This document shows positions 48,871-60,188 of a stretch of 64,000 nt of DNA, one piece after another (position 1 is the first letter of the stretch; each line of letters opens with the position of its first letter). The stretch lies in assembly GCF_900141875.1 (NCBI RefSeq), contig NZ_FQZE01000015.1:1-64000 (forward strand). The letters are read 5' to 3'. Source of the stretch: Tangfeifania diversioriginum (lineage in GTDB: Bacteria > Bacteroidota > Bacteroidia > Bacteroidales > Prolixibacteraceae). Below the pieces are notes generated by a model. The model did not search any database and was not told where the DNA came from. It saw only the letters and a list, made by a program, of their open reading frames with translations. A program made the translations under genes and the position numbers.

Positions 48871-49332
48871 ATGACAGCAATAAAAATAGGCGACAAAATT
48901 CCCGGCTTCTCTTTACCGGATCAAAACGGGATGGTGGCGGACATGAAAAATTTCATTGGGGAAAGCAACATCGTGCTATTCTTCTACCCGAAAGACGACA
49001 CACCTGGTTGCACCAGGGAGGCTTGCTCTTTCCGCGACCATTATGAAGATTTTGCAGATGCAGGGGCAGAGGTTTTTGGAATCAGCGGACAATCGGTGGG
49101 GAGCCATAAAAATTTTGCAGAAAAACACAACCTGAACTACAAACTACTGAGTGATGAGGGCAACAAAGTGCGTAAATTATTTGGTGTGCCGTCCAGTTTT
49201 TTCGGGCTGATGCCTGGCCGTGTAACTTATGTAGCTGACCGCACCGGGAAAGTGGTTTATATTTTCAACTCGCAAACCAATGTAAAGGAGCATGTTGACA
49301 AAGCACTTCAGGTTTTGGGCAACGTAAAATAA
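48871..49332 (+). CDS. bcp: Thiol peroxidase, Bcp/PrxQ type
   Basis: 153 residues (E. coli Bcp: 156). Thioredoxin-dependent peroxiredoxin that reduces H2O2 and organic hydroperoxides in the cytoplasm. Active-site segment FYPKDDTPGCTREAC gives peroxidatic Cys47 (in TPGC) and the resolving Cys52 (C-x4-C), the PrxQ alpha pattern. The C-terminal SQTNVKEHVDKALQVL helix is normal. Its last 25 bases overlap the 3' end of the convergent histidine kinase gene, an antisense overlap. Confidence 0.95.
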   Translation: MTAIKIGDKIPGFSLPDQNGMVADMKNFIGESNIVLFFYPKDDTPGCTREACSFRDHYEDFADAGAEVFGISGQSVGSHKNFAEKHNLNYKLLSDEGNKVRKLFGVPSSFFGLMPGRVTYVADRTGKVVYIFNSQTNVKEHVDKALQVLGNVK

Positions 49333-51602
49333 AAGGCGGCCCCTTTGCCCACTTCCCCTTCGGCCCAAACCTTGCCGCCATGCCGGAAAATAATTCGTTT
49401 ACTGATGGCCAAACCAACCCCGGTTCCTTCAAATTCATCCTCTTTGTGCAATCGCTGAAAAACGCCAAATATTTTATCCACATATTTCGGATCGAAGCCG
49501 GCACCGTGATCTTTTACATAATACACATAATCATTATTATTTTCGCTTTCAGTTGTGCCAATTTCAATTTTTTTAATGTCGGATTTTGAGCTGTATTTCA
49601 AAGCGTTTCCAATTAAATTTTGCCATACCTGGCGGATGAGCCGCTGATCGCATTTCACTTCAGGCATTGGGTGGATTGTCAATTCGAAGCTGCTTTTTTC
49701 ATCTTCGGTGGCTGTTTCTTCAAATATTTCTGTGGCCGTTGCCTTCATGTCAACATCCGAATGCTTCAAGTCGGCCCTGGAAACCCGCGAAAGATTGAGC
49801 AGGTCGGAAATCAGCGTGTCCATTTTATCAGCATTGGCCCTGATTGTTTGTATAAACCTTTTGCCCTCATCGTCGAGTTTATCGGCATAATCTTCGGCCA
49901 GGAAACTTGAAAAACCATTGATTGCCCTTAGCGGCGCCCGTAAATCATGCGAAACCGAATAAGTAAACGCCTCGAGTTCGTTGTTGGAATATTCCAGCAA
50001 CCGGCGTTGTTCTTTTAATTCTTTTGTAATATTGTTCAGGTCTTCCACCATGTAAAGCATGGCTTTTTGGCTTTTATTGAGCTTTTGTATTTTATCTTCC
50101 AGTTCGGCAGTGCGTTCGGACACTTTAACTTCGAGGTCGTTTTTTAGCTGAAGGAGTTCACTCTGCGCTTTCTTCCTGTCAGTTATATCCCTAAAAGTTA
50201 CAACTAAACCGGTAATGGCCTCATTTTGGCGAATGGGATACGAAAAATATTCAGCCGGAAATCCTGTACCATCTTCTCTCCACAACATTTCCATGTCGCT
50301 GTATGTACCTCTTCCTGCCTGGAAAGCTTTTAAAATCAGGCAGTCATCTTTTGTGTATTCCGTTCCGTCGGGTTTAGTATGGTGAATCAAATCGTGCATA
50401 TTTTTCCCAAGCACCTCATTTTTAGTGCTGAATCCCAACATCTCAAGTGCAGACTGATTTATCAGCGTACAATTTCCGTTGGTGTCGATGGCGTAAAATC
50501 CTTCGGCAGTTGAGTTCAGCAACAGCCTGATTTGAGCTTCGTTACTTTTGGCAATAGTCTGTTGTTGCCTCAATTCCTGCAATGTATTTTTATGTTTCGA
50601 AATTTCTTCTTTTAAAATCCGGGTGCGTTTTTTTACTTCTTTACGTAAAAAAATAATCCACGAAGCAACAAAAACAGCAACTAAGGGAATTAATATAAAG
50701 AGTAAAATTTTAGCCAGATTATAGGGGGCTACAAGTGAGTCATCGTCGGGTCCCAGCCATTTGGCTTTTATTTCATCGTAGGTGCCGTTGGCTATTACAA
50801 TCGAGAGTCCTTCGTTAAGCCGGTTGAGCAATTGGCTGTTTCCTTCCTGAACCGCAAAACAAAAATCTTGTCGGAATTGTGGAATTTGAAACTTCAGAGG
50901 TTCTAACGTTCTCAATTCCAATTCTTCAATAAGTTTTACCCCTGTAATACGCTGAGTTATAACTGCATCGTACTGGCCGTTTGCCAAATTTCGAAAAGCC
51001 TCTTCGTATGTACTGGTAGTGAAAATCTTAACTGAAATTTTTTCGCGTCGCACAAATTCCTCGGCATTGTCGCCTTCCATTACCGCAATTTCTTTGCCTT
51101 TCAAATCTTCAAAGGAATTAATGCCGGTTGTACCTTTGCGCACAAATACAGCACCATGTAACGAAAGATAAGGCATTGTAAAATCGAACACTCCTTCGCG
51201 TTCGGGTGTACGCCCCACCAGCGGAAGGGCATCGATTTGTCCTTCGGCCAGGTCATTTTTAATCCGGTTCCAGACCCCGATTTTTATACCTACCTGTAAT
51301 CCTGCTGCTTCGGCAGCGGCTTTAAACAATTCAACCGAAAAACCATCAGCGTTTCCATTTTCGTCCACAATACAATAAGGCGGATAATCGGGTTCGGAGG
51401 CAATAACAATTGAATCTTCCTGATTGAAATCAGTAATAGCTGAATTGCTTTGCTGTGCAAAAATTAAGGGCGCAAAAAAGAAAAAAAACAGAAAGACACT
51501 GATACTTTTTTTTACGTTAAATCCCTGAAATAAAAACCATTCCTCAAGAATTTTCTTCCTGGCAAAAGTTATCCAATAATTTATGATTTCGCTCCCAATC
51601 AT
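49308..51602 (-). CDS. Hybrid sensor: periplasmic SBP_bac_3 domain plus PAS and histidine kinase
   Basis: 764 residues. The signal/anchor is near residues 31-50. A periplasmic amino-acid-type solute-binding domain (SBP_bac_3, about 60-285: YPPYCIVDENGNADGFSVELF) follows, with a membrane helix at about 298-320. Then come a coiled coil, a PAS domain (about 355-475, LLNSTAEGFYAIDTNGNCTLI), another coil, HisKA with phospho-acceptor His (FTYSVSHDLRAPLRAING) and HATPase (NLIGNALKYSSKSD, DHGAGFDPKYVDKIFGVFQ, GTGVGLAISKRII). It lacks a receiver domain and no response regulator lies nearby. It is the last gene of the sensor operon. Confidence 0.9.
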   Translation of the reverse strand: MIGSEIINYWITFARKKILEEWFLFQGFNVKKSISVFLFFFFFAPLIFAQQSNSAITDFNQEDSIVIASEPDYPPYCIVDENGNADGFSVELFKAAAEAAGLQVGIKIGVWNRIKNDLAEGQIDALPLVGRTPEREGVFDFTMPYLSLHGAVFVRKGTTGINSFEDLKGKEIAVMEGDNAEEFVRREKISVKIFTTSTYEEAFRNLANGQYDAVITQRITGVKLIEELELRTLEPLKFQIPQFRQDFCFAVQEGNSQLLNRLNEGLSIVIANGTYDEIKAKWLGPDDDSLVAPYNLAKILLFILIPLVAVFVASWIIFLRKEVKKRTRILKEEISKHKNTLQELRQQQTIAKSNEAQIRLLLNSTAEGFYAIDTNGNCTLINQSALEMLGFSTKNEVLGKNMHDLIHHTKPDGTEYTKDDCLILKAFQAGRGTYSDMEMLWREDGTGFPAEYFSYPIRQNEAITGLVVTFRDITDRKKAQSELLQLKNDLEVKVSERTAELEDKIQKLNKSQKAMLYMVEDLNNITKELKEQRRLLEYSNNELEAFTYSVSHDLRAPLRAINGFSSFLAEDYADKLDDEGKRFIQTIRANADKMDTLISDLLNLSRVSRADLKHSDVDMKATATEIFEETATEDEKSSFELTIHPMPEVKCDQRLIRQVWQNLIGNALKYSSKSDIKKIEIGTTESENNNDYVYYVKDHGAGFDPKYVDKIFGVFQRLHKEDEFEGTGVGLAISKRIIFRHGGKVWAEGEVGKGAAFYFTLPKT

Positions 51603-51629
51603 TGTTTAGTGTTAGTTTTAGCAGTTCGT

Positions 51630-53441
51630 TTAATTTTTATCATTTTTCAGTGCATTAATTTCTTGTCGCAGCTCTTCCATGCGCAGTTCGCGCTCTATAG
51701 TCGCCTCTCGGAAGCTTTCCAGTTCTTCAATGCGTTGGTTCAACTCTTTTGTTTTTTCATTCACTTGCATTTCCAGCTTTTCTTTCATTTTTTTCAATTC
51801 GTTTTCTGCATTTTTCCGTTCAGTGATGTCGAGTACCACCGCCGAAAAAAGCTTTTCATTTCTGTATTCCAGCAATTGAATATTTATTTCGGCTTCATAA
51901 AAAGTACCGTCTTTACGGTAATGCCGGGATTCAAATCGAACAGGCTGACTTTCCACTGACCTTAATTTTTCAAAAATCTTTTTAACGTCTTCCTCCTGAA
52001 TATCCGGTTTCAGGTTCATCGGTGTCATTTGTTTCATCTCGCTGAGGGTGTAACCGGTATTGGCCAGTGCGGCATTGTTCACTTCCACAAAACGCAGGGT
52101 AACGGCGTCGATTAAATAAATTTCGTTTACCGACTGGTGGAAAATTTTACCCAACCGATCGAGCCGCGAATTTGCAGACATGCTATCGGTAATGTCGTTT
52201 ACAAACGCAACAATGTGGGTGTCTGAAACTTTTACTGCATCCACCGTCAATGTCTTCTTTTTACCTGTTTTGGTCAAAAACGGATATATTCCAGAAGCTT
52301 TCCCGCCAACATCCACTCTTTTAAAATGATTTGCAACTTCATCCCGTAACTCTTCAGGTGCGAATTCTGAAATAGACTTTTTGAGTATTTCTCCGGATGA
52401 ATAACCTGTAAGTTCACAAGCCTTGGGGTTCACTTCAACTAAATGCCCTGTTTCGTTGGCGACAAATACTCCAAAAGGAGAATTCTCAAAGTAACTTTGC
52501 AACTTTTCTTTTTCTTTGTTCAATTGCAGGACATTTGAACGGGTTTGGGCAGATTGTTTTTTTAACCGCACGCTGTACCCCAATAATACGAGCCCGACCA
52601 ACAACACCAAACCAGCGACTGCGAAATAATACGGAAAATGTGAGTGTTTCTCTGACTGACTTATTTCTAATCCCTTATATTGTTCCAGTATTTGGTAATA
52701 AAAAGAGCGCGGCGTGTTCTTCCAGTCGGCCAAATGGCTGTCAATAGTTTTGAGCAACCAGGTATTTTCTCCTTTGGGAGTGGCAAAATGCAAAATGGCG
52801 GCGTTAAAAATAACCGGTGTTTTTTTCAGATCGTAATCGTTGAAATTCATTTCGCCAAAAAAATTGTTGGTCACTGCCACATCGGCAACACCAATTTTCA
52901 CTTCGGAGAATGCTTCTCCGAATGAAGAGGCATGAATTTCAGTAAAACTGTATCCGTAGCCTGCCATAACCTGCTTGAAAAATGTTTGCTGGACCGAGCC
53001 TTCGACCAATGCCACTTTTTTGTCCTCCAAATCTGAAAGTTGCGAAATTCCGCTTCCGGGCGACGCATAAACCTGCGACCAGCTTTCGATAACCGGCAGG
53101 TTATTGAAGCTGAATTTTTGTGCGCGTTCATAAGAAAAAGCCACGTCGGGCATCAGGTCAATTTCGCTATTTTCGAGCGACTGCAGGCAATCGCTCCAGT
53201 TGCAACGGAAATATTCCAGCTGCCACCCTTCTTGCCGGGCCATTTCTTCGAGTATTTCGATAAAAATACCGGCTGCATTTCCGCTTTCGTCAATAAATAC
53301 TTTGGGCGGATTCTGGTAAATGCCTACTTTAATGGTACTGTCGGGCTGTGAAAATGCCTGCTTGGCGAAAACAAAAGATAAAACCAAAAGCAAAATTGTT
53401 GCTGCAGTAATTTTATGCCTGACACAAATTAAAGTATTCAT
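51630..53441 (-). CDS. Kinase-less sensor: SBP_bac_3 domain plus two PAS domains
   Basis: About 603 residues from the ATG at 53441 (a TTG six bases upstream is possible). Signal peptide (ends AFSQ), periplasmic SBP_bac_3 (about 35-255, KVGIYQNPPKVFIDESGNAAG), membrane helix (about 275-295), PAS (about 305-425, YFENSPFGVFVANETGHL), PAS (about 430-545), and a C-terminal coiled coil with RIEELESFREATIEREL. It has no HisKA, HATPase, GGDEF or HTH. It probably passes signal through its coiled coil to a kinase in the complex. It starts 12 bases after the preceding gene's stop. Confidence 0.88.
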   Translation of the reverse strand: MNTLICVRHKITAATILLLVLSFVFAKQAFSQPDSTIKVGIYQNPPKVFIDESGNAAGIFIEILEEMARQEGWQLEYFRCNWSDCLQSLENSEIDLMPDVAFSYERAQKFSFNNLPVIESWSQVYASPGSGISQLSDLEDKKVALVEGSVQQTFFKQVMAGYGYSFTEIHASSFGEAFSEVKIGVADVAVTNNFFGEMNFNDYDLKKTPVIFNAAILHFATPKGENTWLLKTIDSHLADWKNTPRSFYYQILEQYKGLEISQSEKHSHFPYYFAVAGLVLLVGLVLLGYSVRLKKQSAQTRSNVLQLNKEKEKLQSYFENSPFGVFVANETGHLVEVNPKACELTGYSSGEILKKSISEFAPEELRDEVANHFKRVDVGGKASGIYPFLTKTGKKKTLTVDAVKVSDTHIVAFVNDITDSMSANSRLDRLGKIFHQSVNEIYLIDAVTLRFVEVNNAALANTGYTLSEMKQMTPMNLKPDIQEEDVKKIFEKLRSVESQPVRFESRHYRKDGTFYEAEINIQLLEYRNEKLFSAVVLDITERKNAENELKKMKEKLEMQVNEKTKELNQRIEELESFREATIERELRMEELRQEINALKNDKN

Positions 53442-53452
53442 CTGCAATGGTT

Positions 53453-54820
53453 TTATAATTCTGGATCTTTCAGCAATTTTATCTCCTCGCGCAGCTCTTT
53501 TATCCGGAATTCGCGTTCGATGGTTGCATTCTGGAAACGCTCCAGTTCGGCAATACGTTCGCGCAGTTCACTTGTTTTCTCTTCCACTTCCACTTCAAGG
53601 TTTTCTTTTAAGCGGCGCAATTCATTTTCTGCTTTTACCCGTTCAGTAATATCATGAATCATGGATAACATCACTTTCCTGCCTGATTGCATAATGGTTT
53701 CAGCTGACCAGAGTGCAATAATCACTTCTCCTCCTTTTGTGTTAAATTCAATGTATTCATTTTTAAAAGAGCCGTTTTGTAAGACTTGCTGAATAAGCCG
53801 ATCGCGTTCTGAAGGATTACGCCAAATGCCGACTTCTTTTGAGGTTTTCCCAATTTGTTCTTCCCTTGGATACCCAAGCATTTCAATCCATCGGTTATTT
53901 ACATCGATAATAAGCCCTGATTCAATGTCGGAAATAACCAATGGGGCCGGGCTCGCTTTGAAAGCAGTGGAAAAGCGTTCTTCGCTTTCTTTCAGATCTT
54001 CTTCATGCTTTTTTCGTTGTGTAATATCTCTGATGATTAAACTATTTCTGAGTTCACCCTTACCGGTTTTATATATTGAAGAAGTTATTTCAGTCGGAAA
54101 TAGTGAACCATTTTTCCTAAAGAAAGTGAGTTCGCCGGAAACATGTCCTTTCTTTTTGCGTTCTTCAGTGAATTTAAGGAGGTTGGGATCATCCAGGTTT
54201 ACAATGCCTTCTCTGCCTGCCCGGGTCAATTCTTCTTCTGTCATTTGAAACATGTCGCAGGCTGCTTTATTGGCATTTAATATTGAGCCGTCAGGATTTG
54301 TAATTAAAATGGCATCCAAGCTATTCTCCATCACGAGGCGAAACCGCTCTTCGCTTTCTTTCAGCTCATTTTCAGATTTCCGGCGCTTTTCAATTTCTTC
54401 GGTCAGGTCTTCAATTAAATTAAGGGAAGCTTTTCGGGCTTTTTTAAGCTCGCCCACGGTTTGCTGTAATTTTACATTTCTTTCTTCTGCAATTTTTTCA
54501 ATGGACAGTTTTTCTTCATTACGATTTTCATCGAAAACAAGTCGTTCCAAAATAACGGCCAGCATTTGCACTGCGTTTTGAATAAGGCTGCGGTTTTCAT
54601 CTGAAAGTTCACCTTCATTTTCAATCTCAACAACACCAAAAAATGAATTCCGGGTTTTGATTTCCATGTCGTTTTCGGAACCTTTTTCGGGCAGGTAGTT
54701 AAATTTTACAGGTCGGAAAGCATCGTTCATCCCGTCAACAAACAGCTCAATTATTTTGGACCTGCTATGCAGTTGCGACAGGTTAAACATCAGCAGAAAA
54801 AGGTTATGTGCAAAGTTCAT
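53453..54820 (-). CDS. Kinase-less sensor: GAF-like plus two PAS domains
   Basis: 455 residues. A small N-terminal domain (about 1-95, GAF-like, unnamed), a coiled coil (about 100-150), PAS (about 155-275, VMENSLDAILITNPDGSILN), PAS (about 285-400, AFKASPAPLVISDIESGLI) and a C-terminal coil RIAELERFQNATIEREF then KELREEIKLLK. No output domain and no membrane segment, so it is cytoplasmic. The terminal coil strongly resembles that of the SBP/PAS protein next to it. The ATG at 54820 leaves a short N-terminus, so an N-terminal truncation is possible. Confidence 0.85.
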   Translation of the reverse strand: MNFAHNLFLLMFNLSQLHSRSKIIELFVDGMNDAFRPVKFNYLPEKGSENDMEIKTRNSFFGVVEIENEGELSDENRSLIQNAVQMLAVILERLVFDENRNEEKLSIEKIAEERNVKLQQTVGELKKARKASLNLIEDLTEEIEKRRKSENELKESEERFRLVMENSLDAILITNPDGSILNANKAACDMFQMTEEELTRAGREGIVNLDDPNLLKFTEERKKKGHVSGELTFFRKNGSLFPTEITSSIYKTGKGELRNSLIIRDITQRKKHEEDLKESEERFSTAFKASPAPLVISDIESGLIIDVNNRWIEMLGYPREEQIGKTSKEVGIWRNPSERDRLIQQVLQNGSFKNEYIEFNTKGGEVIIALWSAETIMQSGRKVMLSMIHDITERVKAENELRRLKENLEVEVEEKTSELRERIAELERFQNATIEREFRIKELREEIKLLKDPEL

Positions 54821-54835
54821 AGTCCAAAAAATTCA

Positions 54836-55486
54836 TTAAACAGTTAAGAATTCAGGTGCATTTTGCCTGAGCCATTCATCGGGATCCTGGTAATATGGAT
54901 TTTGGGTAATTACCCCGCCGGAAATGGTGTATGGATGGGTGCGCAATACATTCATAATAGTGCTGCCCGAAAATTTATTGACATTGTACATGCAGACACT
55001 AATCCATGGTTTTCCCGGAATGAAATAGTTGAGCCGCGATTCGTAAACCATGAGGTGTTCCACGCCGGGAATGGCTTCGAGTGCCCACACCATTTCTGCT
55101 GTGGCGCGGATATTGCGCCGGCCCTTTTTCTGGGATTCATTAAAATATTCATTGAGGCTTTTATCCATTGCAAGAGGGGAAAAAGTGCCACCAGGATAGT
55201 AGAATTCTTTAGCGCCTCTTATTGTAAAAAGCGCTGGATCGTGCGGGTGGTGTTTACATTCAGGGTAAAACTTTCCGTATTTTTCAATAAACTCCTCTTG
55301 GCTGTGCTCCTCGGGGCAATACAGCTGTTTGTCTTTTTCGATGGCTCCCTGGTGCAAAAACCCGAAAATGATTTCGTCGCGCTCGGCTTCGGTTTCGTAA
55401 AGCCCACAAATGTGCAATCCCCAGTTGCAGGTGTAACCGCCAAAACCCATGTTCAGTTTTTCCTGGTCCGATGTTTTGATGTGCAT
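54836..55486 (-). CDS. MEDS-domain (DcmR sensory) protein
   Basis: 216 residues, essentially one MEDS domain (methanogen/methylotroph DcmR sensory domain). Indicative segments are WGLHICGLYETEAERDEIIFG near the start and KKGRRNIRATAEMVWALEAIPG in the middle. MEDS domains are thought to sense small hydrocarbon-type or halogenated ligands and occur mainly in sensor kinases of methanogens and methylotrophs. A free-standing MEDS protein inside a PAS-sensor operon is uncommon. A good RBS (GAAAGGA) precedes the ATG. Confidence 0.82.
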   Translation of the reverse strand: MHIKTSDQEKLNMGFGGYTCNWGLHICGLYETEAERDEIIFGFLHQGAIEKDKQLYCPEEHSQEEFIEKYGKFYPECKHHPHDPALFTIRGAKEFYYPGGTFSPLAMDKSLNEYFNESQKKGRRNIRATAEMVWALEAIPGVEHLMVYESRLNYFIPGKPWISVCMYNVNKFSGSTIMNVLRTHPYTISGGVITQNPYYQDPDEWLRQNAPEFLTV

Positions 55487-55511: not shown

Positions 55512-57752
55512 TCAATTTTCCTCATTCTCATCCTGAATGCGATACTTTTTGGGCTGCCCCAATTTCATAAGCAGCTCATTTATATCCCGTTTCAGCTCAA
55601 TCATCCTGTTTTCGCGACCTACCATGACACGGTTGAATTTCTCCAGCTCTTCCATTCTCTGTTTTAATTCGGTTTCTGCCAGTTTACGCTGCGTAATGTC
55701 CATTATAAAACCTTCGATATAATCCTGCTCTTCACTGTCAGAATTAATTGCCCGGCCCTGTTCCCAAACCCAGTGTTCCTTTCCGTTTTTGTCGGTAATC
55801 CAGTATTCTGTAACAAAACTCCGGTTTTCTTTTATAGCCGCCTGTACTTCCTCCCAAACTTTTTTTCTGTCATCAGGATGAATTAGCTGTCCGTAAGAAA
55901 TTACTTCGTTATTATTCAGCTCGTCGGCGGGGTAACCGGTGAGCGGGAGGCAACCTGAACTTACAAATTCCATGGTCCATTCCGCATCATTTTTACAGCG
56001 GTACGCCATGCCGGGGAGGTTGTCCATGAGGGTGGAAAGCCGGCGTTCATTTTCGCGCAAAGCATTTTCGGCTTCAATGCGTTCGGTAATCACTTCTGTA
56101 TAAAGTACAATTCCTCCAATTTCGCCGTCGGCTTTGTACCAGGGGCGGCACTCCCAGCGTGTCCAATCAATTGAACCGTCATCGCGGTAATACGGGTCAC
56201 GTTCAGCTTTTGAAACTTCGCCCCGGAGTGCTTTTTGATGCACATCGCGCCACTTTTGCGGCAAATCCGGGAAAATATCGTAATGGTTTTTTCCGATAAT
56301 ATCTGTTTCAACCAATTTATACTGTTGGAGGTATTGCTGACTGACATACACGTATTTTAAATCGCAATCATGAACAGCAACAGCACTGTTGGCATGCTCA
56401 ATAATATAGCGCATTAATTCATGGGAATGGGCCAGTTCTTTTTCTGCCTTTTTCCGGGCCGTAATATCGCGCACAAAAACCAGGGCGCCGTTTTTTCCTT
56501 TATAAAATATAGGTTCTCCTGATGTTTCCACCCATACCTCACTACCATCAACCCGTAAAAATATTTGTTCAAGCGGCTCAACTACAGATTTTCTTTCTGT
56601 ATTTAAATTGCGAACCCTTTCTCTGATTTTTTCGTGATAGTCGGGATGAAAGCGTTCCATTACAGGAGTGCCCACCAGCTCATCTGCTGATTTAACACCA
56701 AATAGTTTACAGGCAACCGGATTCAGGTAGGCAAATTTCATCTCCGACTGAATAAAGATTGGGTCAGGCGCACCTTCAACAATTACCCGGAAACGCTCTT
56801 CATTTTCCTTTAATTTTTGCTGAATATTATACTCTTCGGTAACATCCCTGAAAACAAGAACTACGCCCATAACTGCCCCCTGATCATCTTTAATAGGAGC
56901 GCCCGAATCGGAAATCTGGTATTCTTTTCCGTTTTTTGAAATAAGTTTTGTATGGTTGGCCAGTCCCACAATTTTTCCGGTTTCAAGTACTCTTTTTACC
57001 GGATTTTCCACTTTTCTACCGGTTGTGGCATTTACAATGCGAAAAACCACATCAATGGGTTTATTCCCGGCCTCACTGAAACTCCAGCCCGTAAGTTGCT
57101 CTGCTATGGGATTCATCTGGATAACCTGCCCGTTGGTGTCAGCAGCTATCACTGCATCGCCCAACGAATGAAGGATTACACGCTGGTTTTCTTCGCTGTC
57201 ACGCAATGCTTTTATCATTTTCCTCCGTTCCAGAAAATATCCCACGTTTTTGGCCAGGGTATCCAGCAGGTTTCTTTCTTCTTTTAAAAATGGCCCTTCC
57301 CCCAGGTCAGGTTTTTCCTCAAGTAAAAAGATATCGAAAGTGCCCTTTTTTTCATTATCGACTAAAACCGGGGCCGATTGTTTCCAGGGGGTTTCTTTAA
57401 AATTAGCGGTTTTAAATTCTTTTCCGTTGTAAATTATCCGGGCACAGGTAATTTCCGGATATTGCCATGAGCCGGGAACCAGCTCCACGAGTGATTGAAA
57501 CAACTCTTTAGCCGTAATATCGGGTTTTTCGACGAGCAGCGATAGATTATAAAGGCAGTTGAGTTCTTTCTCCCGCTCGCCCAAATCGTGTGTTCTTTTC
57601 TCCAGCGCCTGCTGATAAAAGCCCACTTCCTCCAATACCTCATTAAGTTCATTTTCGGAGAGATTGTAGTTTTGCTTCAGTAAAAGCGCTCTGATTCTCT
57701 CTTTAAGCGATTTTCGGCCATCGGGTTGGTCGGAATAAAGGATTGGTTCCAT
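55512..57752 (-). CDS. Kinase-less sensor: GAF plus four PAS domains
   Basis: About 746 residues from ATG at 57752 (TTG at 57761 is less likely). An N-terminal helical region (about 1-65), a GAF-like domain (about 65-190), four PAS domains (about 195-315, 320-440, 445-565, 570-700; e.g. HSLGDAVIAADTNGQVIQMN, GAPDPIFIQSEMKFAYLN) and a final coil RMEELEKFNRVMVGRENRM then ELKRDINELLMKLG. That coil is of the type that joins PAS arrays to kinase cores, but the protein stops there. A 134-base gap precedes it, so an internal promoter is possible. Confidence 0.88.
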   Translation of the reverse strand: MEPILYSDQPDGRKSLKERIRALLLKQNYNLSENELNEVLEEVGFYQQALEKRTHDLGEREKELNCLYNLSLLVEKPDITAKELFQSLVELVPGSWQYPEITCARIIYNGKEFKTANFKETPWKQSAPVLVDNEKKGTFDIFLLEEKPDLGEGPFLKEERNLLDTLAKNVGYFLERRKMIKALRDSEENQRVILHSLGDAVIAADTNGQVIQMNPIAEQLTGWSFSEAGNKPIDVVFRIVNATTGRKVENPVKRVLETGKIVGLANHTKLISKNGKEYQISDSGAPIKDDQGAVMGVVLVFRDVTEEYNIQQKLKENEERFRVIVEGAPDPIFIQSEMKFAYLNPVACKLFGVKSADELVGTPVMERFHPDYHEKIRERVRNLNTERKSVVEPLEQIFLRVDGSEVWVETSGEPIFYKGKNGALVFVRDITARKKAEKELAHSHELMRYIIEHANSAVAVHDCDLKYVYVSQQYLQQYKLVETDIIGKNHYDIFPDLPQKWRDVHQKALRGEVSKAERDPYYRDDGSIDWTRWECRPWYKADGEIGGIVLYTEVITERIEAENALRENERRLSTLMDNLPGMAYRCKNDAEWTMEFVSSGCLPLTGYPADELNNNEVISYGQLIHPDDRKKVWEEVQAAIKENRSFVTEYWITDKNGKEHWVWEQGRAINSDSEEQDYIEGFIMDITQRKLAETELKQRMEELEKFNRVMVGRENRMIELKRDINELLMKLGQPKKYRIQDENEEN

Positions 57753-57886: not shown

Positions 57887-59077
57887 TTACCGGGGCAATT
57901 CAAAATAAAAGGTTGACCCCTTCCCTGGTTCACTTTGCACGGCAATTGTTCCGTTGTGTCCTTCAATAATATTTTTCACAATGAACAACCCCAACCCGGT
58001 GCTTTTTTCGCCCGAAGTTCCGGTGCTCGCTGCCTTGCCAAACGGCTGAAAAATGATTTCGGTTTTATCAGGCGGAATGCCCACGCCCTCGTCGCGCACT
58101 TCAACCCTGACGGTTTTTTCTTTTGCCGTAATGGTAACGTAAACCCGGTTCCCGCTATAAGAAAATTTCACGGCATTGGTGAGCAAATTGTTTAACACCT
58201 GTTCCATTTTTTGCGAATCGACATTCAAAATCAGTGGTTTATGGTTGTAATCGAATTGTATTGAAATGTCTTTTTTAGCCGAAAGCGCATTGTTTAACGT
58301 GATATTTTTTTCGGCCAGTTCAATCAAATCGGTTGGCTCACGGTTCAGGCTTAACTTCCCGGATTCAATTTTGGAAATATCCAGCAAATCTTCAATCATT
58401 TTCAGCAGAAATTCCGCAGAAGTATTGATAATGTGCAGGAATTTACGATGTTCGGGTGAAAGCGTATCTTTTGTTTCATCTTCCAGAAAATCGGCAAACG
58501 ACATAATAATGCCCAGCGGATTGCGTAAATCGTGGGCCGCCATTCCCAGAAACTGGTTTTTCAGCTCGTTGAGGCGTTCCAGCTCAGCATTCTTTTTGGC
58601 CATTTCGCGTTGCAGGTTAACCAGTTCGTTATTCAGGCGACTCAAATCATTCAGCTGCTCTGAAGGCTGGTTGGCATTTTGCCCGGTGGTGTAATTTTTT
58701 TTGACCAGTGAACGGATAAAATTGGCCTGCTCATTGTTAATTTGCTGCAGCTGGTTGATAAATTTCAACGTATCGGACGTACTTGCGGCGCCTACCATCC
58801 AAATTTTATCTTCAAGAAAAAAACCGGTAAAATAAAGTGGAATAGCTTCATCATTTAAGGCAAGCGAAAATGAATAATCAAATGCGATATTGTGTTTTTT
58901 TACCTGCATTAAAAAATCCATCACTCTGGAAACAGCCCTTTTTTCAAAAAGCTTTGTAACTGGTTTGTTTACAAATTGCTGCACAGGCAAGTCAAAATCA
59001 TTTCGGATTATATTTTCAATTAATCCTTTTTCATCACAAATCAGGACGATGCCGTTCATGTATTTCTTGTTTTCCAT
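57887..59077 (-). CDS. Histidine kinase with PAS-like N-terminus
   Basis: 396 residues, no membrane segment. An N-terminal PAS-like domain (about 1-115), a long coiled coil (about 115-175), HisKA with His in FLGMAAHDLRNPLGIIMSFA, and HATPase with NLLTNAVKFS, DEGVGIPPDK and STGLGLFIVKNII. It starts five bases after the cobalamin-protein stop, so the two are translationally coupled and likely act together. No receiver domain or response regulator is nearby. Confidence 0.93.
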   Translation of the reverse strand: MENKKYMNGIVLICDEKGLIENIIRNDFDLPVQQFVNKPVTKLFEKRAVSRVMDFLMQVKKHNIAFDYSFSLALNDEAIPLYFTGFFLEDKIWMVGAASTSDTLKFINQLQQINNEQANFIRSLVKKNYTTGQNANQPSEQLNDLSRLNNELVNLQREMAKKNAELERLNELKNQFLGMAAHDLRNPLGIIMSFADFLEDETKDTLSPEHRKFLHIINTSAEFLLKMIEDLLDISKIESGKLSLNREPTDLIELAEKNITLNNALSAKKDISIQFDYNHKPLILNVDSQKMEQVLNNLLTNAVKFSYSGNRVYVTITAKEKTVRVEVRDEGVGIPPDKTEIIFQPFGKAASTGTSGEKSTGLGLFIVKNIIEGHNGTIAVQSEPGKGSTFYFELPR

Positions 59078-59081
59078 TTTC

Positions 59082-60140
59082 TCAGGCTGTCAATAAGTTA
59101 GCTACTTCCACTGCTTCACTGGCGTTAGGGGCGTAACCATCGGCGTCAAAATCAGACCATTTGTCGCCAAAAAAGCTCAGCGCACTTCCACCAATCATAA
59201 TTTTCAGGTTTCTCCCCGATGTGCTTTCCCTGATTTTTCGGATAGTATCGCGCAAAAGTGGCCGGTGGTAAGGCATGGCAGCCGACAAAGCCACCAAGTG
59301 GGCCTCATTTTCATCAATGGCGTTTAAAATGCTTGCAGCCGGTGAATTAGCACCGAGGTAGTAGGTGTCCCACCCCCCCATTTCAAAAAAATCGGTCACC
59401 ATACGAATTCCAATTTCATGCAATTCTCCGCCTACACACGCAGCTACCAACGTTTTTCCAATTCGGTTGGTTGAAAAAATATACGGATACATTTGCGCCA
59501 TGATTGTCTGGGTTGAAGCTGAACAAAAATGCTCGGTTGCCACGCTGATTTCGTTGCTGAGCCAAAGCCGGCCAACTTCATATTGCGATTGCTGAAATAC
59601 CTCCAGGTAAATGTCTTTTACCGGCATTTTATTTTCCACTGCATTCATAACTATTTGCGATGCTGTCCGCCGGTCGCCATCAAGCAGGGCATCAGTATAT
59701 TGCCTGGCAATTCTGCCGGCTTCGGTGGAGGTGTCAATAAAACTCGTTATTTCATCCAGCGGTTCGTTCATCCTTTTTAATCCCTCTTCAATAAATGGCA
59801 TAAAAACCGGATGAATTTTTTCAGCGAACATCTCTTTCAGTACTTCGGCAGTGCATTCAAGTGTAACTATCATCACCTCATCCGGAAAATTCAGGCCACG
59901 AAAAAGACGTTTTACCCAGGCAACATATTCGCCAAATACATCGGTATCATCCGACACCACAGCTTCAACCAGAAACGGCAGGTGATAGCCGGCATCACGA
60001 ACGCTCAGCCTCCGGCCTTCCGAACCAAAAGGCTTCCAGAATCCGGGTTGCCTGTCGTACTGTTTTTCTACAATTTGCTCAGCAATAACTGATTGTTTCT
60101 GTAAAACAGCATTTTCAAATTGTTCGATCAAGTTTTCCAT
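59082..60140 (-). CDS. Cobalamin-binding photosensor-like protein (CarH-type module, no DNA-binding domain)
   Basis: 352 residues from ATG at 60140 (TTG at 60155 rejected). A ~140-residue all-helical N-terminal domain of unknown fold is followed by a B12-binding-2 helical cap (about 145-225) and a B12-binding Rossmann domain (about 228-350). The cap has the W-x9-E-H motif of CarH/LitR photoreceptors (Trp193, Glu203, His204). The Rossmann domain has the E-x-H-x-x-G axial ligand segment (His241 in GGELHEIGIRM). It probably binds adenosylcobalamin and changes state in light. Unlike CarH there is no MerR DNA-binding domain. Its signal probably goes to the adjacent histidine kinase. Confidence 0.88.
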   Translation of the reverse strand: MENLIEQFENAVLQKQSVIAEQIVEKQYDRQPGFWKPFGSEGRRLSVRDAGYHLPFLVEAVVSDDTDVFGEYVAWVKRLFRGLNFPDEVMIVTLECTAEVLKEMFAEKIHPVFMPFIEEGLKRMNEPLDEITSFIDTSTEAGRIARQYTDALLDGDRRTASQIVMNAVENKMPVKDIYLEVFQQSQYEVGRLWLSNEISVATEHFCSASTQTIMAQMYPYIFSTNRIGKTLVAACVGGELHEIGIRMVTDFFEMGGWDTYYLGANSPAASILNAIDENEAHLVALSAAMPYHRPLLRDTIRKIRESTSGRNLKIMIGGSALSFFGDKWSDFDADGYAPNASEAVEVANLLTA

Positions 60141-60188
60141 GATTATTGATTTCAACCAAAGATATAAATTAAACTAAAATTTTAACAG

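Follow-up and report, generated by a model that had tools for sequence, protein, structure and literature searches.

Photocobilins, described as a family in 2024 (PMC10979010), combine an adenosylcobalamin (AdoCbl)-binding domain with a phycobiliprotein-like globin, as seen in SasPcob and AbPcob (PDB IDs 8J2W, 8J2X, and 8J2Y). They bind AdoCbl and biliverdin as optically coupled pigments, and in SasPcob the bilin is bound more tightly when AdoCbl is present. The bilin rings of SasPcob are bound by Asp270, and its Trp296 contacts both ring D and the corrin; in the known members, light turns the dimer into monomers and controls the activity of a partner, and predicted models place the B12 domain at either end of the protein (PMC10979010). 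The photoglobin family and the BBAG-2/pre-2 cluster represent a bilin-binding globin lineage that is tied to B12 domains and lacks the Cys residue of the CXRD motif; the pre-2 gene clusters encode a B12 protein and a globin, sometimes with a heme oxygenase, and ChuW appears there only in a contrast of aerobic and anaerobic pathways (PMC10151467). CarH (TtCarH; PDB IDs 5C8D and 8C31) has the same type of AdoCbl pocket, and the GxxW/EH/GxxH signature has been confirmed with proteins that respond to light (PMC11796333). Because heme oxygenase needs O2, bilin photoreceptors are thought to be oxygen dependent. The HutW-type enzymes are O2 independent and produce anaerobilin, whose free form absorbs at 445 and 795 nm (PMC10404700).

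The DNA analyzed here (the window) is a 64,000-nucleotide stretch of contig NZ_FQZE01000015.1 from Tangfeifania diversioriginum. It encodes a protein, P0001, that is assigned by its sequence and its structural model to the photocobilins, with the globin first and the B12 domain second (Table 1). The computational analysis covers the domains, fold, and pocket residues of P0001 and the linkage of its gene to a histidine kinase gene (P0002) and to an upstream enzyme gene (P0005). Like SasPcob and AbPcob, P0001 joins an AdoCbl domain and a phycobiliprotein-like globin in one chain, with the same Trp, Glu-His, axial His, and bilin-pocket Asp and Trp residues. It differs from the solved photocobilins in the reversed domain order, the absence of a fused enzyme, the separate dedicated histidine kinase, and the HutW-like gene upstream. 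The domain order as such is not new, since a group with C-terminal B12 domains was noted in PMC10979010. Compared to the pre-2 clusters, the two domains form one fused protein, and in many lineages heme oxygenase is replaced by a radical SAM or ABM protein.

Table 1. Features of the photocobilin gene run in the window and KaiB/KaiC genes in homologous loci (locus:positions)
Feature	Position	Strand	Size or residues	Basis or remark
Photocobilin P0001	59082..60140	minus	352 aa	ATG at 60140; globin (N) and AdoCbl domain (C)
Phycobiliprotein-like globin domain (P0001)	59760..60140	minus	1-127	Allophycocyanin structural match and PF00502
S46-V-R-D49, CXRD equivalent with Cys to Ser; D49 = SasPcob Asp270	59994..60005	minus	46-49	Alignment and invariance
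W75 = SasPcob Trp296	59916..59918	minus	75	Alignment and invariance
B12-binding_2 four-helix bundle (P0001)	59493..59708	minus	145-216	Pfam E 4.8e-16
W193, adenosyl-stacking Trp (= CarH W131)	59562..59564	minus	193	Alignment to 8j2w and invariance
E203-H204 (= CarH E141-H142)	59529..59534	minus	203-204	Alignment to 8j2w and invariance
B12-binding Rossmann domain (P0001)	59109..59453	minus	230-344	Pfam E 5e-19
H241, lower axial cobalt ligand (= CarH H177, SasPcob His108)	59418..59420	minus	241	Alignment and invariance
HutW/ChuW-like radical SAM protein P0005	60189..61481	minus	430 aa	Last gene before photocobilin, 48-bp gap
Partner histidine kinase P0002	57887..59077	minus	396 aa	PAS-topology domain (9-97), coiled coil, HisKA, HATPase_c
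Multi-PAS protein P0003 without kinase domain	55512..57752	minus	746 aa	Pfam; run membership by position only
MEDS-domain protein P0004	54836..55486	minus	216 aa	PF14417, E 2.3e-32; run membership by position only
KaiB/KaiC genes	L033:8441-8719, L034:8890-10840, L036:9448-11255, L037:9101-10904, L055:6120-7938
KaiB/KaiC genes, further loci	L084:8201-9983, L114:4270-4548, L087, L094, L120, L131

The C-terminal part of P0001 matches two B12-binding Pfam domains, both with scores above their cut-offs, so the motifs located there are no chance matches. These are a W-x9-EH motif (W193, E203, and H204) and an E-x-H-x-x-G segment, E239-L240-H241-E242-I243-G244. Profile alignment with 8j2w equates W193 with SasPcob Trp61, E203 and H204 with Glu71 and His72, and H241 with His108; the SasPcob numbering is offset by 6, identically for the AdoCbl- and bilin-pocket residues. 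W193, E203, H204, H241, and G244 are invariant in all 72 homologues. The solved structures closest in sequence are those of the photocobilins 8j2x, 8j2w, and 8j2y (E values of 8e-25 to 6e-22), with CarH far behind at about 6e-4. In VIA-align comparisons, residues 139 to 351 of the predicted P0001 model match SasPcob (8j2w) with a Z score of 26.7 and an rmsd of 1.8, and the B12 region matches TtCarH (5C8D and 8C31) with a Z score of about 21. The position of TtCarH His132, which belongs to the bis-His light state, is Leu194 in P0001 and Gln, Leu, or His in 45, 16, and 8 of the 72 homologues, respectively. P0001 is thus closer to SasPcob than to CarH in both sequence and fold; lacking a MerR domain and a His132 equivalent, it is ruled out as a CarH member. 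The sequence-only reading had recognized both motifs and had seen in them a CarH-type, light-sensing AdoCbl domain without the MerR DNA-binding domain. The motifs, the equivalence of Trp193 and His204 to pocket residues of known B12 photoreceptors, and the missing MerR domain (a globin is in its place) are all borne out, and of the CarH label the AdoCbl pocket stands, but not the family assignment. The source genome also encodes an ATP:cobalamin adenosyltransferase. Altogether, P0001 is very likely to be an AdoCbl-based light sensor.

The sequence-only reading had left the fold of the helical N-terminal part unassigned. This part is indeed helical, but the Pfam match, profile search, and structure comparison all identify it as a phycobiliprotein-type globin. 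The Pfam Phycobilisome domain (PF00502) matches residues 11 to 122 with an E value of 1.6e-4 (22.1 bits; cut-off, 22.2 bits), and the family profile retrieves phycobiliproteins directly from among the PDB sequences. Structure prediction, proposed earlier for residues 1 to 140, reveals a known fold: in an AlphaFold2 model built from 72 homologues (mean pLDDT, 93.7), residues 1 to 127 align with allophycocyanin (4po5) over 127 residues, with a Z score of 17.6 and an rmsd of 1.9. Most VIA-align matches were to B12 domains, which makes the ranking of globin relatives partial. The bilin-pocket residues D49 and W75, as well as Y72, are each found in 72/72 homologues. Because of the globin fold and the invariant bilin-pocket Asp and Trp, P0001 is classified as a photocobilin and not as a CarH with an unusual N terminus; it is quite likely to bind a linear tetrapyrrole. 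In contrast to the light-harvesting phycobiliproteins, which have the covalent-bilin Cys of the CXRD motif, P0001 has Ser46 at this position, so its bilin is expected to be bound noncovalently, as in SasPcob.

A Cys residue at position 46 is found in 10 of the 72 homologues, and 7 of these have an ABM gene (see below) upstream; their bilin is possibly covalent. Cys46 is present in 7/13 ABM-linked and 3/59 other homologues, while a residue other than Arg occupies position 48 in 13/13 ABM-linked homologues, and Arg48 is found in 16/16 of those linked to HutW-like enzymes or heme oxygenase. A tie of Cys46 or Gln48 to the ABM enzyme is strong in these raw counts but not significant, with just two independent supported pairs on the tree.

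The P0002 gene starts with an ATG at 59077, 4 bases past the stop codon of the P0001 gene. The N-terminal region of P0002 has its strands and helices arranged in PAS order and is not recognized by Pfam. The suggestion that the sensor is coupled to the adjacent kinase is well supported: of the 99 photocobilin loci in which the following gene is visible (a few loci were fetched twice), 97 have a P0002 homologue there, and in 95 it shares the first 165 residues of P0002. Therefore, a dedicated kinase belongs to the system, and P0002 is, with high probability, the output of P0001. Photocobilin-kinase loci are found in Bacteroidota, Chloroflexota, Thermodesulfobacteriota, Pseudomonadota, Bacillota (Paenibacillus and Heliobacterium), a methanogen, and other organisms; in Paenibacillus and Heliobacterium, the kinase bears receiver domains. 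P0003 and P0004 are probable further members of this signaling gene run. The minus-strand run goes on in the window (49308-55486) with genes for the MEDS protein, a kinase-less PAS protein, and two proteins that combine a periplasmic binding protein with PAS, the last of them with a kinase domain.

The best NCBIfam match of P0005 is TIGR04107 (HutW/ChuW), which covers its full length with 285 bits, compared to 182 bits for HemW; this score is below the curated cut-off of 400 bits, as are those of its relatives (255 to 292 bits). P0005 contains the radical SAM CX3CX2C motif, also shared with the anaerobilin synthases HutW, ChuW, and HmuW. Its closest plasmid-encoded matches are annotated as ChuW/HutW and include Rahnella HutW, with about 30% identity over 97%. 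In the tree, Rahnella HutW is the sister of a clade made up of P0005 and its relatives, and the HemW-type proteins are set apart (SH-aLRT support of 100); long branches join here and leave the inner order unsure, and support inside the HutW-like clade is weak. Assignment of P0005 to HemN or HemW is ruled out by the scores and the tree. It differs from HutW, ChuW, and HmuW in forming a separate clade, in scoring below the cut-off, and in its surroundings: no heme-uptake genes were seen beside P0005 within the window, and the genes upstream of it resemble those for a sugar kinase and an aldolase-type enzyme. P0005 is somewhat favored as the supplier of the tetrapyrrole, and the pigment bound by P0001 is possibly anaerobilin-like. 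Between P0005 and P0001, the minus strand carries a putative promoter-like sequence, TATCTTTG (window 60158-60165), which resembles TAnnTTTG, the -7 promoter element of Bacteroidota. Transcription of the photocobilin gene may thus start from a promoter of its own, and cotranscription of the two genes is not certain.

Three unrelated kinds of heme-opening enzymes, or their relatives, are encoded beside photocobilins (counts refer to deduplicated loci). Eleven loci have a HutW/ChuW-like gene. In 9 of them it immediately precedes the photocobilin gene on the same strand, in L034 it is upstream but on the other strand, and in L114 it lies 3.6 kb downstream; the position of P0005 is thus repeated in 8 other loci. 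An ABM protein of ~100 residues (Pfam ABM E value of about 1e-14) is encoded directly upstream in 19 loci. The best NCBIfam and PDB relatives of this group include heme-degrading enzymes of the IsdG, HmoB, and MhuD types, all below cut-offs. The catalytic residues of IsdG are Asn, Trp, and His; in the ABM group, Trp65 and His75 are invariant and the Asn position is an invariant Ser6, so that the set is incomplete. Heme oxygenase (PF01126) is encoded upstream in 6 loci, 4 of them divergent. What the three kinds share is ring opening of heme, which gives a linear tetrapyrrole, and this is the class of ligand expected for the globin. This linkage is common, not universal: of 95 loci with 800 bp or more of upstream sequence, 61 have none of the three beside the photocobilin. 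In L114 (1712-2476; genome G024), the photocobilin gene contains an in-frame TAG, which reflects a true lesion or a fault in the assembly.

The linkage is not a matter of chance. Among 395 Bacteroidota genomes, the ABM subfamily (E values below 1e-40) is found in just 4, in each case adjoining a full-length photocobilin gene, and the next match is at 1e-13. A search of the same genomes with the HutW-like subfamily gives 645 bits in the source genome and, as next best, 205 bits, the HemW background. Among 61 closer relatives, TIGR04107 scores above 220 bits only in genomes G000 and G024, both times on the photocobilin contig. None of the three enzyme kinds was found at any fetched locus of B12 proteins without a globin domain. 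Within a single Desulfobacterales clade (support of 100), one Desulfobacteraceae locus (L056) and that of Desulfonema (L057) encode a heme oxygenase, and another Desulfobacteraceae locus (L058) encodes a HutW-like protein in the same place, a case of nonorthologous replacement.

Canonical heme oxygenase is absent from all 21 Bacteroidota genomes with full-length photocobilins, including the source genome, and from the nine HutW-linked genomes tested. If P0005 acts like HutW, it would need no oxygen and would make anaerobilin rather than biliverdin. The COX1 family is missing in 6/11 genomes of the HutW group compared to 0/22 in the ABM and heme oxygenase groups, counts that come from related genomes. 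The idea that HutW linkage marks strict anaerobes holds only partly: the source genome carries a gene of the heme-copper oxidase (COX1) family, and the organism may be facultative and need not be a strict anaerobe.

These features suggest that the locus is likely to encode a light sensor that has two chromophores and a dedicated kinase and that receives its tetrapyrrole from the HutW-like enzyme predicted upstream. P0005 would open heme without oxygen, yielding a linear tetrapyrrole that would probably be anaerobilin or its derivative, not biliverdin. The N-terminal globin would hold this pigment against Asp49 and Trp75, and the C-terminal domain would hold AdoCbl, with His241 below and the adenosyl group against Trp193 and Glu203-His204. 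Light taken up by either pigment would break the Co-C bond, the break would change the oligomeric state of the photocobilin, and this change would alter the activity of the PAS-type histidine kinase P0002, acting in trans.

In a rather unlikely alternative, P0001 is a photocobilin whose HutW-like neighbor is unrelated to the pigment and serves iron or heme recycling, while the globin takes up outside biliverdin or, as in AbDPcob, stays mostly empty. The low biliverdin occupancy of AbDPcob, only about 20% (PMC10979010), and the involvement of HutW enzymes in iron acquisition (PMC10404700) would fit this picture, as would the majority of loci that have no linked heme-opening gene. However, AbDPcob has lost the pocket Asp, which is invariant in the P0001 family; three unrelated kinds of enzymes, all expected to make one class of product, are encoded at this same position; and the neighborhood of P0005 in the window shows no heme-uptake genes.

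The globin might also be merely a structural or protein-docking module of a CarH-like AdoCbl sensor that binds no bilin, given that AdoCbl photochemistry alone suffices in CarH and in an AdoCbl-only photocobilin. The invariance of Asp49, Tyr72, and Trp75, the conserved S/C-x-R/Q-D equivalent of the CXRD motif, and the linkage to heme-opening enzymes make this improbable. A sensor of cobalamin or tetrapyrrole status, not of light, has a precedent in B12 domains that sense cobalamin itself, but all the light-specific residues (the Trp, Glu-His, and axial His) are retained throughout the 72 homologues and belong to the signature validated on light-responsive proteins (PMC11796333), and such a role appears more improbable still. 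The two-chromophore light sensor with a dedicated kinase remains the preferred reading.

Photocobilins, their reversed domain order, and the association of related globins with heme oxygenase (PMC10151467) are already known. What appears to be new within the literature searched is the association with HutW-like and IsdG-like enzymes, together with how deep the kinase linkage goes; neither a bilin-supply linkage to photocobilins nor anaerobilin in photoreceptors was found there. The original photoglobin study (Schneider et al. 2022), which was outside this search, may show some of these neighborhoods. The full proposal is that photocobilins use anaerobilin, or another nonbiliverdin heme fragment, from a dedicated O2-independent HutW-like enzyme and signal via a dedicated PAS histidine kinase, with the enzyme exchanged between lineages for an IsdG-like protein or canonical heme oxygenase. 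In this entirety it is tentative and somewhat doubtful. If true, it would describe a bilin photoreceptor with an oxygen-free pigment supply that may reach the near infrared. A conserved sensor in which an O2-independent enzyme has been swapped in to make the pigment would illustrate how bilin sensing operates, or could have arisen, without oxygen, and it would provide a B12-based sensor for the near infrared. The sensor and its single kinase family define a complete predicted light-to-phosphorylation module found in many phyla, with Azospirillum brasilense Sp7 as a cultured representative and the Azospirillum species that carry homologues as tractable hosts.

Two Heliobacterium species (L080 and L091), which are anaerobic phototrophs, encode the photocobilin-kinase pair with no linked or canonical heme oxygenase. 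Full-length homologues with 40 to 43% identity are encoded on large plasmids of A. brasilense Sp7 (L180:5001-6020) and Azospirillum thermophilum (L179:4995-6056), and in the latter a histidine kinase gene closely follows the photocobilin gene. In about ten loci from Bacteroidota, Chloroflexota, and a gammaproteobacterium, the photocobilin-kinase pair is followed by genes for KaiB (PF07689; E value of about 1e-27) and KaiC (PF06745). It is possible that a KaiBC clock-like system gets light input from this pair. The MEDS profile weakly matches one of these KaiC proteins, in L084.
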